This document shows positions 5,267-9,905 of a DNA stretch of 64,000 bases, piece after piece (position 1 is the stretch's first letter; the number at the start of each line of letters is the position of its first letter). Source of the stretch: Phycisphaerales bacterium (lineage in GTDB: Bacteria; Planctomycetota; Phycisphaerae; Phycisphaerales; UBA5793); contig JADZAS010000005.1 in the NCBI GenBank assembly GCA_020852515.1, positions 62,001 to 126,000 of the forward strand. The letters run 5' to 3'. Position numbers and translations under genes: made by a program. The notes under the pieces are model-generated. The model searched no databases. It had not been told where the DNA came from and saw only the letters and a list, made by a program, of their open reading frames with translations.

Positions 5267-5938
5267 ATGGACAACCGGCCGCTCAACCTTCTCGCCATCG
5301 CCCTGCTGCTGCTGCTCGCCGCCGGCGCGGCTGGCTGCGCTTCGCGCGGGCCCACCCGCGTCGAAGTCCGCCCCGCCAACTATGACGCCGCATTCGACGC
5401 CACTGTGCAGGCACTGCGCGATGAGCAGTTCCTGCTCGACCGCATCGATCGGCGCCTGGGCGTCATCACCACCCGGCCGCGGTCGGCCAGCAGTTTCCTC
5501 GAACCGTGGAAGGGCGACAACTCAAACGTCGCCCAGGCGGTTGAATCAACACTGCAGTACCAGCGGCGGATCGTGCGCATCGAGTTCGAACCCGTCGGCG
5601 GCGTCGCGGCCGAGACCGGCCCGGATACGCTGCCCCCCTTCGGCCAGGTCAGCCCCGCCGAGCCGTTCTTCATCCCGGCGGAGCATCGCGGCACGCTCGT
5701 TGTCAACGTCCGCTGCTTCGTCGAGCGCTCGCACCGGCCGGGCCTGCAGGTGCCCACGATGGCGGTGCGCAAGAGCAGCGTCACCGTGGACCCGTCGCTG
5801 CGCGAGCGCGGCATGACCGCTCAGTTTTGGGAGCCGATCGCGCGCGATGCCTCGATGGAGTCGCGCCTCAAGCGGCGCATCGCGGATAAGGCCGGCGCCA
5901 CGGTGCAGGTCAGCGAGCCGGCGCCGCCCGCGCCTTGA
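5267..5938 (+). CDS. Predicted lipoprotein of unknown function
   Basis: This 223-residue protein begins MDNRPLNLLAIALLLLLAAGAAGC, a type II signal peptide with the lipobox AAGC, so it should be lipid-anchored. The mature part contains 'VEVRPANYDAAFDATVQALRDEQFLLDRIDRRLGVITTRP', a pattern common in planctomycete lipoproteins in which a paralogue is compared with a reference state, then beta-rich sequence ending in a Pro-rich tail. The ATG at 5267 is preferred over one at 5231 because it gives a compact signal peptide. The 3' end overlaps convergent lipB by 29 bp. Function is unknown. Confidence 0.8.
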   Translation: MDNRPLNLLAIALLLLLAAGAAGCASRGPTRVEVRPANYDAAFDATVQALRDEQFLLDRIDRRLGVITTRPRSASSFLEPWKGDNSNVAQAVESTLQYQRRIVRIEFEPVGGVAAETGPDTLPPFGQVSPAEPFFIPAEHRGTLVVNVRCFVERSHRPGLQVPTMAVRKSSVTVDPSLRERGMTAQFWEPIARDASMESRLKRRIADKAGATVQVSEPAPPAP

Positions 5939-6650
5939 GTGCCGCTCTGAACTCTGCCGCCATGGCGCCCTTCACTTCATCCATCGGCGGTGCCGCAGGG
6001 CCGAGCAGTTGCTGCAGGCTTGTCACCGACCTTCCCATCAGGCCGCAGGGCACGATGGTGCGGAAGTGCTCGAGGTTCGTCGACACGTTGAGCGCCAGGC
6101 CGTGCATGGTGATCCACCGTCCGACACGGATGCCCAGGGCGCAGATTTTCGCCCCGCCGCCGCCCGCCGTGCATAACTCGCCTTCGCCCGCCCCGCCGAC
6201 CCACACGCCCGTCGCGCACGCGTCCCGATGCCCCTGCACGTCAAAATGCGCCAGCGTGGCGATGACGACACCCTCAAGCCAGCGCAGGTACGCCGCCACT
6301 CCCAGCCCGAGCCGCTGCAGATCAAGAATGGGGTAGACGACCAGTTGGCCGGGCCCGTGGTAGGTGATGTCGCCGCCGCGATCGGTTTCGCAGACCTCGA
6401 TGCCCAGCCGGGCCAGTTCGCCCGGCGGCGCGAGCAGGTGACCCCCTGCGCCGGGCCGGCGGCTCACGGTGATGACGGGGTCATGCTCGACGAGCAGCAG
6501 GAACATCGGCGCATCCGCCTGCCCCCGCTGCCGGGCCGCCAGCAGGACATCGCGCCGGCGGAGCTGCTCTTCGTACGCCTGCGCGTAGCGCATCCGCCCG
6601 AGGTCGATGACCTCCAGTTCGGCTCCCGCGCTGCCCGCCTGCACCGGCAC
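5910..6650 (-). CDS. lipB: Octanoyltransferase (lipoyl synthesis)
   Basis: LipB moves octanoyl from acyl carrier protein to lipoyl domains of 2-oxoacid dehydrogenases and the glycine cleavage H protein, the first step of de novo lipoylation. The 246-residue product has the signature RGGDITYHGPGQLV (91-104), the catalytic lysine region 'GGAKICALG' (Lys168) and the thioimidate cysteine in 'IVPCGLMGRSVTSL' (Cys202). An unusual Gly/Glu-rich insertion ('VGGAGEGELCTAGGGG') precedes the lysine. lipA is not adjacent. lipB is divergent from lpxA, with 41 bp between their starts. Confidence 0.95.
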   Translation of the reverse strand: MPVQAGSAGAELEVIDLGRMRYAQAYEEQLRRRDVLLAARQRGQADAPMFLLLVEHDPVITVSRRPGAGGHLLAPPGELARLGIEVCETDRGGDITYHGPGQLVVYPILDLQRLGLGVAAYLRWLEGVVIATLAHFDVQGHRDACATGVWVGGAGEGELCTAGGGGAKICALGIRVGRWITMHGLALNVSTNLEHFRTIVPCGLMGRSVTSLQQLLGPAAPPMDEVKGAMAAEFRAALKARAAPAR

Positions 6651-6691: not shown

Positions 6692-7531
6692 ATGAAACGA
6701 ATCGATCCCAGCGCGGTCATCGGACCTGAGGTGGAACTGGCGGACGACGTCGAAATCGGCGCCGGCTGCCGCCTTGAAGGCCGTATCACCATCGGCCCGG
6801 GCACGAGCCTCATGGGCTACAACTTCCTGCGCGGCCCGCTGTCCATCGGCGCCAACAACCGTTTCTATCCCTTCGCCTGCATCGGCTTTGAGCCGCAGGA
6901 TTACAAGTTCGACCCGTCGCGAGCCGGGGCCGGCACGGTCATCGGCAACGACAATATCCTCCGCGAGCACGTGACGATCCACCGAGCGACTTCCGAGACC
7001 GTCCCCACGCGCATCGGCAACAACAACATGCTGATGGTGGGCTCGCACGCGGGGCATGATGCGTGCGTTGGCAATCGCTGCATCTTCGCCAACAACGCGC
7101 TCGTCGGCGGTCACGCGGTGATCTACGACGGCGTGAATCTCGGGGGCTGCGGGGGCGTCGCCCAGAAAGTAGCCGTCGGGCGATTGGCCTTCGTCTCCGG
7201 CACGGTCGGCATCACGCGAAACGTCCCTCCATTCATGATCTCGCGATCCTTGCGCACCGTCGGCGGGATCAACATCGTCGGCCTGCGCCGCTCGGGCATG
7301 AGTCGCGACGAGATCGATCAGGTCAAGTGGATCTTCCGCACGCTCTTTCTCTCGCGCAACACGCGACCGACCATGGTCGAAACGCTCAGAGAGCGAGCGA
7401 CTGAATCCCCCGTCGTCGCGGAGACGCTGGCGTTTCTGCAGACGCACGCCGGACCGATCGCGGAACTCGAAGCGGGCAAAACCTCGCGCGAAATGACCGA
7501 AGCCGACGGCGTGGCGGCGCTGAGTGATTAA
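6692..7531 (+). CDS. lpxA: Acyl-ACP-UDP-N-acetylglucosamine O-acyltransferase
   Basis: LpxA adds a 3-hydroxyacyl chain to UDP-GlcNAc, the first step of lipid A synthesis in the cytoplasm. The 279 residues contain left-handed beta-helix hexapeptide repeats from the start ('IDPSAVIGPEVELADDVEIGAGC'). They also have 'IGFEPQDYKF' (cf. IGxxPQDLKY), 'HVTIHRAT', the catalytic histidine region 'GSHAGHDACVGN', and the C-terminal helical domain beginning 'GINIVGLRRSGMSRDEI'. Length is slightly above the E. coli enzyme. The presence of lpxA argues for an LPS-bearing outer membrane. lpxB, lpxC and lpxD are not in the window. Confidence 0.93.
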   Translation: MKRIDPSAVIGPEVELADDVEIGAGCRLEGRITIGPGTSLMGYNFLRGPLSIGANNRFYPFACIGFEPQDYKFDPSRAGAGTVIGNDNILREHVTIHRATSETVPTRIGNNNMLMVGSHAGHDACVGNRCIFANNALVGGHAVIYDGVNLGGCGGVAQKVAVGRLAFVSGTVGITRNVPPFMISRSLRTVGGINIVGLRRSGMSRDEIDQVKWIFRTLFLSRNTRPTMVETLRERATESPVVAETLAFLQTHAGPIAELEAGKTSREMTEADGVAALSD

Positions 7532-8548: not shown

Positions 8549-9841
8549 TTAGTCAAGCAGATCGGCGAGTCGCGACTGGAGTCTGATCTCCTCGACAGGA
8601 GTGCCAGAATTCACTGCGATGAGTTCGCGGACGCGCTGCACAATCCTCACATGATCGGGATCATCCGCCCTTGCGGGCCATTCGCACATCGCGAGCCAGA
8701 TCGCCGCGCGCTCGATGGTCTCCCATTCGCGAGGAATGCCGCCGTGGAGTCTCCAGCTCTGACGCCGTCCGGCAACACCGAGAACGATCTCCCAAGCCGA
8801 CACCGCAACAGCGACCACCAACATGAGAAGGAGACCGTCCATTGCCGCCCGCAATAACAAGGGCGCTCCGAGTCGGCGGGCACCAATATTCAACAGTACA
8901 AAGAACCCACATGCGATGACTACTGCGATGGTTGTCATCGCCGCGGCAACGATTCGGCCCCAAGTCGTCGATTCGAGTTCCGGTACAGGCATACCTCCCG
9001 CGCGCAGCTCGCCGAAAGTCGCGAAACGATTGTCGGCGGGGATGATGTCAGCGAGCCGAGTGTCGGGCAGCAGCGTGGATGGTTCAATCTGGACAATGGC
9101 CGCCATTCGCGAACAGAGCGCCTGAGCCGCGAGGCTAACGGCTTCGCTTTGTACTTCTTGATCGTCCACGCCCACTTCACTCAGCCTAGACCGAGATGAT
9201 GACGTAGTAGATCGCGCCGTGTGTTCTATAATGCGCGCCGGCGTCGCGCAATACGCCGGGATCATGCCACACAATCGTGAGAGCATTCCGACTCGCCCCA
9301 TCCAGCGCAGACCAAAGATCACTGTTAGCCAACCAACCAGCAGCATCGGCGAAGCAAGGATGATCACCCACTCGGGCGACATCGCGAACTGCATGGCGAT
9401 CCCGACAGCCAGAACCACAACCGCAAGACATGAAACTGGAAAGAGGAGTCGTCCGAACCAGGACCATCCCAACGGGGGAAGCTCGAAGCCCGCATCTCTC
9501 AAGTCCTGCCAGACGGCTACTCGCTGATCGCTCGGGATTATGCGGCACAATTCCGTATCCGGGCGAATCAATCGCTTCTCGACCAGCACGGAATCGGACA
9601 GGACCTGACGGAGTCGGTAAAACAGCGGCACCTGCTGACGAATGCGGTCGCGACGTCGCTCGCTCGTCAATCCCGTGAACCGCTCCTCGGCGCGTTTCTT
9701 GTTCGATGCATCCGCAGTCTTCGCTTCGATCGCACAAACCATGTCCTCGACCGTTGCGATCAGCGTCCACTCCCGATCTGAGAGGGTGATGCCAAACTCG
9801 CTCTCAACCAGCATGACCAGTTCAACGCCGTCGAGTCCCAT
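8549..9841 (-). CDS. ACP-like multi-module membrane protein
   Basis: The 430-residue product starts MGLDGVELVMLVESEFGITLSDREW, matching helix II onward of an acyl carrier protein, but the position of the phosphopantetheine serine is Gly. Two related modules follow. Residues 72-125 contain 'PDTELCRIIPSDQRVAVWQDLRDAG' and 236-290 'PDTRLADIIPADNRFATFGELRAGG'. Each is followed by a pair of membrane helices (about 128-150 and 157-178; 296-318 and 328-355). A third module start at 397-430 ends at 'RLADLLD'. I prefer the ATG at 9841 because related small ACP-like proteins begin MGLDxVE; an in-frame GTG at 9859 is possible. Function is unknown. Confidence 0.78.
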   Translation of the reverse strand: MGLDGVELVMLVESEFGITLSDREWTLIATVEDMVCAIEAKTADASNKKRAEERFTGLTSERRRDRIRQQVPLFYRLRQVLSDSVLVEKRLIRPDTELCRIIPSDQRVAVWQDLRDAGFELPPLGWSWFGRLLFPVSCLAVVVLAVGIAMQFAMSPEWVIILASPMLLVGWLTVIFGLRWMGRVGMLSRLCGMIPAYCATPARIIEHTARSTTSSSRSRLSEVGVDDQEVQSEAVSLAAQALCSRMAAIVQIEPSTLLPDTRLADIIPADNRFATFGELRAGGMPVPELESTTWGRIVAAAMTTIAVVIACGFFVLLNIGARRLGAPLLLRAAMDGLLLMLVVAVAVSAWEIVLGVAGRRQSWRLHGGIPREWETIERAAIWLAMCEWPARADDPDHVRIVQRVRELIAVNSGTPVEEIRLQSRLADLLD

Positions 9842-9905
9842 GGTGGAGAATCGTACCACGACGCCATCTCAATGCCCGCCGCCCTAGCATCCCCCGACAC
9901 CGATC

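Follow-up and report, generated by a model that had tools for sequence, protein, structure and literature searches.

The gene and its reading frame

The window, meaning the whole stretch of 64,000 nucleotides analysed here, carries on its minus strand a gene for a protein of 430 amino acids. LipB-, LpxA- and metallo-hydrolase-like genes flank it on one side, and a methyltransferase gene and an IspG-like gene on the other. The features assigned at this locus are as follows.

8549..9841, minus strand: whole gene, 430 amino acids plus stop (from reading of the open frame and purifying selection against the relative L041)
9710..9841, minus strand: first part of domain A, matched to acyl carrier protein (ACP) helices II-IV (residues 1-44), with Gly2 at the position of the phosphopantetheine serine (from PF00550 and NCBIfam matches, the family-profile alignment and model helices 3-16, 22-27 and 31-42)
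9203..9646, minus strand: probable domain B, at about residues 66-213, whose ACP-like fold keeps the usual order of helices and takes up a membrane hairpin between helix II and the last helices (from VIA-align and Foldseek)
9290..9460, minus strand: predicted membrane hairpin 1, model helices 128-153 and 159-184 (from hydropathy and the AlphaFold model)
8666..9157, minus strand: probable domain C, at about residues 229-392, a second copy of domain B that has diverged from it (from the B-unit profile and Smith-Waterman alignment)
8768..8965, minus strand: predicted membrane hairpin 2, model helices 293-324 and 328-358 (from hydropathy and the AlphaFold model)
8552..8659, minus strand: second part of domain A, matched to ACP helix I and its loop (residues 395-430), the last residue being the Asp that precedes the serine in ACPs (from joining tests, the family-profile alignment and model helix 395-412)
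5910..6650, minus strand, and 6692..7531, plus strand: LipB-like and LpxA-like genes, which accompany the gene here and also in its two nearest named relatives, L041 and L042

The gene starts with ATG at position 9841 and stops at 8549-8551. An alternative GTG start at 9859 is in frame with this ATG, and a stop codon closes the frame upstream. The original prediction had treated the gene as a real open frame, and this view holds: the 430 codons contain no internal stop, no sign of a frameshift was seen, and comparison with the closest relative, L041 (about 50% identical), gave dN 0.43 and dS 1.41. In the C-terminal helix the same pair gave dN 0.27 and dS 2.19, the latter being rough over 38 codons. 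The ratio dN/dS for helix I is about 0.12 between these two genes, and its median is 0.093 over the 56 usable of 66 pairs among 12 members of the Flavobacteriales type. The gene is thus under purifying selection, which by rough estimates is strongest on the displaced helix I described below. A normal ACP gene that had been frameshifted or split was considered and rejected. Past the stop codon, ACP helix II was found in none of the three frames, and 78 of 80 loci end in a like manner.

A circularly permuted ACP domain

Residues 1-40 had earlier been read as an ACP from helix II onward, and profile searches agree with this. PF00550 matches residues 3-35 of the protein as encoded, entering at profile position 32, with a score of 13.9 bits that lies under its cut-off of 20.8. 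NCBIfam ACP models match residues 3-42, likewise below their own cut-offs (best E 6.1e-9). The N terminus begins with Gly where ACPs have the attachment Ser. The C terminus of the protein, VRELIAVNSGTPVEEIRLQSRLADLLD, corresponds to ACP helix I and loop I and ends at the Asp before the attachment Ser. This segment had been taken for the start of a third internal module truncated by the end of the chain, a reading that has to be given up, as it is helix I of the N-terminal half. The upstream stop does close the frame, as had been pointed out in the original prediction, but it does not mean that helix I was lost: the helix is displaced to the C terminus. The N- and C-terminal pieces would therefore form one circularly permuted ACP domain. 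A paralogue encoded in the same genome (L002, a frame of 236 amino acids) starts with MGLDSVELVMEVEDEF and has ESHLVNDLGMD at its C terminus.

Joining the two ends in ACP order was shown to restore the ACP signal. When the C-terminal tail of the window protein was joined to its N-terminal head, the PF00550 score rose to 23.9 bits, above the cut-off, and internal modules of the protein used as control tails gave 13.3 and 16.5 bits. The paralogue with joined ends scored 48 bits. The test was then repeated with a profile built from 22 ordinary ACPs found in the phylum of the window, taken to be Planctomycetota. It covered 76 proteins of the family, of which one is the window protein and 75 come from the 80 loci kept from a scan described below. 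Median scores were 31.1 bits for native proteins, 62.9 for joined ends, 33.1 for the unpermuted order, 35.2 for shuffled tails and 34.6 for internal pieces. The joined form scored higher than the native one, and higher than the best of 20 shuffled tails, in all 76 members; against the best of 20 internal tails it scored higher in each of the 74 compared. The ACP profile was matched from end to end by 75 of the 76 joined proteins vs none of the native ones. For the window protein alone the margin is modest (30.4 bits joined vs 26.4 for the best shuffled tail).

Profile alignment located the point at which the fold is cut. A family profile of 67 sequences matched the solved ACP 2ehs_A (E 5.8e-25) in two swapped stretches, profile 197-228 aligning with ACP residues 3-34 and profile 3-43 with residues 36-76. 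The sole ACP residue skipped between them is 35, which we take to be the phosphopantetheine Ser; it comes after ...EDLGAD and before LD. Among the best 60 of 132 matches of this profile, all are named as ACPs or mitochondrial ACP subunits, and 59 were aligned as two such stretches. Against Pfam at E 0.1, the only models to match more than five of 67 members are two ACP models. Measured against PF00550 membership, the window protein shows common descent with ACPs helix by helix, and it departs in native score, in the serine and in helix order.

The smallest members of the family allow the permuted domain to be seen by itself. The AlphaFold model of L120, a bare protein of 81 residues from Dawidia soli, has a mean pLDDT of 84.4 and a pTM of 0.68, with helices at 5-16, 22-27, 31-41 and 46-61 that correspond to the order II, III, IV, I. 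A Foldseek search with this model placed integration host factor, rather than an ACP, in its two top rows, and none of its rows reached E 0.001. Many of the ACP rows that follow align over about 32-40 residues with an rmsd of 0.5-1.8 and 37-53% identity, and partial alignments of this kind are as much of a permutant as an aligner bound to sequence order can detect. Full-length rows examined with VIA-align had Z of at most 5.9 at 1-15% identity; being sequential, these alignments were not counted as evidence. Integration host factor, 1ryk and 2go7 were rejected as true relatives of the L120 fold and taken as chance bundles. From the profile alignments, the joining test and the L120 model, the helix order in the family is II-III-IV ... 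I, not the I-II-III-IV of ACPs. Domain A is almost certainly an ACP that has been circularly permuted at the phosphopantetheine site.

Loss of the serine and retention of acidic helix II

The original prediction noted Gly at the modified serine position and proposed that homologues be checked, and they bear the observation out. The position is Gly in all 76 members counted, the window included, most of which were recovered with a pattern that contains MGLD. Five of the 80 loci (L052, L084, L096, L097 and L118) were excluded from these counts and from the joining test, because of the deviant starts, frame or tail described below. As one scan pattern includes MGLD, the MG start is partly a selection effect. 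A further 17 proteins were recovered without that pattern (8 + 6 + 3), 5 of which recur in identical form among the later scan loci. MG is the start in 15 of these 17 but not in L122 and L123. The Ser is also absent by reading from the members with different starts (L052, L122 and L123). A DNA pattern for M-S-L-D-x-V-E-L-V matched none of 392 genomes of the window's phylum; the pattern for M-G-L-D-x-V-E-L-V matched six, including the window's own, and its reversed control gave zero matches.

The acidic residues of helix II have been retained. D4 and E13 are present in 76 of 76 members and E7 in 74 of 76; these correspond to D38, E47 and E41 of E. coli ACP, positions read by ACP partners. Because the Ser is gone while these positions are kept, the window protein is very likely not phosphopantetheinylated. 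The host genome also encodes a normal DSL ACP (50.7 bits to PF00550), flanked by ketoacyl-synthase and short-chain reductase genes, and another protein is therefore available for fatty acid synthesis.

The middle domains and their membrane hairpins

The internal duplication that had been claimed for the middle of the protein was confirmed by self-comparison. A module profile built from 40 relatives scored 43.7 bits at residues 73-125 and 17.5 bits at 250-294 of the window protein, with a maximum of 5.1 among 2000 shuffled proteins. Smith-Waterman alignment of one module against the other gave 81 vs a maximum of 48 over 500 shuffles. The same test was weaker in relatives: 58 vs a maximum of 51 in L041, 44 vs 54 in L010, and not significant in L042.

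Each module had also been described as followed by paired membrane helices. Hydropathy places four hydrophobic helices at 132-150, 159-177, 297-315 and 338-356, and the AlphaFold model of the protein (mean pLDDT 84.4, pTM 0.57) has the corresponding helices at 128-153, 159-184, 293-324 and 328-358. The pairs are thus supported, but the fold evidence suggests that they lie inside ACP-like domains rather than after them. The first nine rows of a Foldseek search with this model were carrier proteins, the best at E 0.74 with probability 0.99 and none at E 0.001. VIA-align superposed model residues 68..213 on the whole ACP 2qnw, skipping the membrane hairpin, with 78 of 80 residues aligned, an rmsd of 2.1 and a Z of 10.2; this tool re-examines Foldseek's own list, and a Z of about 10 is under its caution level of 13 for helical bundles. 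Of the 165 rows with Z of at least 2, the best 50 were, judged by title, either carrier proteins or small chains from complexes of such proteins. The sequence comparison of domain B with ACPs does not show this relation: the match was very weak, with an hhalign probability of 1.3%, collinear over 69 columns, from a narrow set of 17 members against 22 similar ACPs. Judging from the models, B and C are probably further serine-less ACP-like domains in normal helix order, each with an inserted two-helix hairpin. The chain order of the window protein would then be A(II-IV), B with its hairpin, C with its hairpin, A(I).

With four membrane helices, both chain ends would lie on one side of the membrane, presumably the cytoplasm, and the halves of A can close. 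This argument is limited to proteins of the window type because helix counts in the family are not always even: crude hydropathy counts over 80 proteins gave no helix in 27, one in 10, two in 27, three in 13, four in two and five in one. In 69 of 74 long members, the linker before domain B has a strongly conserved Cys that belongs to a C-x-[STA] motif with FYxLR after it. The window protein, L041 and L042 lack this Cys motif.

Spread and variation of the family

One scan of species genomes recovered 102 relatives, and 80 loci, spread over many phyla, were retained. Record titles among the relatives name Planctomycetota, Bacteroidota, proteobacteria, Verrucomicrobia, Acidobacteria, Melainabacteria, Armatimonadetes, Riflebacteria and others. 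The spread is patchy, as the module profile was found in three of 148 genomes of the window's phylum, the window's own included. At the match, 76 of the 80 loci start with MGLD and one with MGFD, two have MG just ahead of the match (L096 and L097, in which the match starts two residues past MG), and one, L052, starts otherwise. The helix-I tail, which was not part of the scan patterns, is the chain end in 78 of the 80. L118 (6001-6834) lacks this tail and continues into unrelated sequence; L084 (6001-6688) has a broken reading frame, and the tail is found in its next frame.

The middle of the protein varies greatly in size. Bare permuted ACPs have 81-87 amino acids (L120, L110), members of 177-199 amino acids have no predicted membrane helices, most of those with about 218-251 have a hydrophobic hairpin region, and the longest, of the window type, have 416-430. 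L120 shares 46-58% identity, counted over common columns, with five Bacteroidota members that have a middle domain, which suggests that a protein may gain or lose this domain and still keep the permuted one. In another locus (L009:1501-1860; G054 C1:4050577, 120 amino acids from its ATG) a permuted ACP has a zinc-ribbon-like CxxC...CxxC linker in place of the middle domain.

Two loci hold two family genes in tandem (L052:6001-7542 and L070:6001-7440). In L052 the second gene begins with an ATG four codons past the first stop, which brings its helices II-IV close behind helix I of the gene before it. The first gene of this pair has a different start and, by reading, Ala at the Ser position. Three relatives are plasmid-borne (L121, L122 and L123, from records of Persicobacter, Fibrella and Sphingobium). 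L121 is cut short at only 82 residues, and L122 and L123 have diverged ends, with different starts and no terminal DLGxD. The record of L041 (WYBR01000112.1) is titled Vicinamibacteraceae, and its protein is identical to that of a genome of the window's genus (G003); the record may be misnamed. None of five members given to the PADLOC anti-phage defence models matched at E <= 1.

Gene neighbourhood

LipB-, LpxA-, metallo-hydrolase- and IspG-like genes were found near the gene in both L041 and L042, and in none of the 78 other loci at E 1e-10. The methyltransferase gene is near the gene in L041 and not in L042. Clustering of open reading frames around the 80 loci, 54 of which have at least 3 kb on both sides, gave no family-wide neighbour: apart from the gene itself, no cluster occurs in more than eight loci. 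The longest member of the eight-locus cluster is without a Pfam match. LipB and LpxA use acyl-ACP. Their proximity is weak support for the ACP mimic proposed below, because conserved gene order within the genus explains it.

Possible functions

Since the Ser has been lost and the acidic positions of helix II have been kept, the likely role of the protein is that of an ACP mimic. The overall explanation favoured here, to which we give an even chance, is a membrane-anchored and non-acylated mimic of ACP. The hairpins of domains B and C would anchor the protein in the membrane, with the chain ends meeting on the presumed cytoplasmic side. Domain A would show the ACP recognition surface and never carry a chain. 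More tentatively, and at somewhat less than even odds, the mimic may serve in docking or regulation of ACP-binding enzymes, in that it could hold, space or restrain ACP-using enzymes at the inner membrane. The docking scaffold without acylation that the original prediction suggested is still the best guess at its function.

Other explanations give the chain ends, the charges or the linker a larger part. Helix I of one chain might complete helices II-IV of the next, producing dimers or head-to-tail chains in the membrane. This is rather unlikely, even though most members have termini that are almost exactly conserved, the halves of the window protein are about 350 residues and several membrane helices apart, and tandem genes occur in L052 and L070. 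The bare members of 81-87 amino acids have short linkers, L120 is modelled as a single domain (pTM 0.68), and ends on one side of the membrane permit closure inside one chain. About as doubtful is a sensor or decoy for acyl-ACP, in which an acidic domain A binds a basic domain B in cis until a true acyl-ACP or an ACP-binding enzyme displaces A. The idea draws on median net charges of -6 for A (II-IV) and -3 for its helix I part (n=76) vs +5.5 for the B unit (n=74), but in the window protein B is only +1 and C is -4, and no partner is known. Less probable still is that the chain ends are themselves the working part, as a clasp that opens and closes within or between molecules or as a site of N-terminal chemistry. 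Once Met is removed, Gly2 would have its amino group at the place of the phosphopantetheine, beside the C-terminal carboxylate, and across phyla most members preserve the two ends almost residue for residue.

That the protein is a working carrier loaded elsewhere, at a Ser in position 5 or at the linker Cys, is improbable. Position 5 is Ser in 28 of 76 members and the C-x-[STA] motif is found in 69 of 74 long ones, but the former is otherwise Gly, Thr, Ala or others (Gly in the window protein), and the latter is missing from the window protein, L041 and L042. The low ACP score of the window protein and its modest gain on joining would fit a degenerate remnant, in which two leftovers of ACP genes flank a membrane protein and have no function as a domain. 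Such a remnant is highly improbable, as both halves recur across phyla and are under purifying selection, with helix I the most strongly selected.

The natural permutant, if confirmed, would mean that the ACP surface is used without the carrier arm, and the family would provide a natural tool for separating docking from carrying. It would also give a name to a widespread family hidden as 'hypothetical protein' (in one annotated case) or as weak ACP hits. If the reading that centres on the chain ends were true, it would be a new use of the ACP fold.

Comparison with known systems

ACP is among the best-studied small folds, and the family described here appears to be a natural permutant of it whose break falls precisely at the prosthetic-group site and which has been kept in many bacterial phyla. 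Among titles and abstract openings of the open-licence literature, no description of a natural circularly permuted ACP was found; as far as these searches show, such a permutation is undescribed. The family resembles ACP (PF00550, TIGR00517; 2ehs, E. coli AcpP) in the sequences of helices II-IV and I, in the acidic helix II and in the modelled fold of domain B. It differs in its permuted helices, in Gly for the phosphopantetheine Ser, and in its extra domains and membrane hairpins. Polyketide synthases (Pks13) offer a parallel for an ACP-like domain without a working attachment site, in ACP domains that lack the serine or do not function. Those polyketide synthase domains have the normal helix order and lie inside large enzymes. 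The complexes MmpL5-AcpM and EmbC-AcpM, which are among the VIA-align rows for the window model, are similar in placing an ACP fold beside a membrane protein. In these complexes, however, a separate ACP chain binds, whereas the ACP-like domains of the window protein are built into the membrane protein itself.
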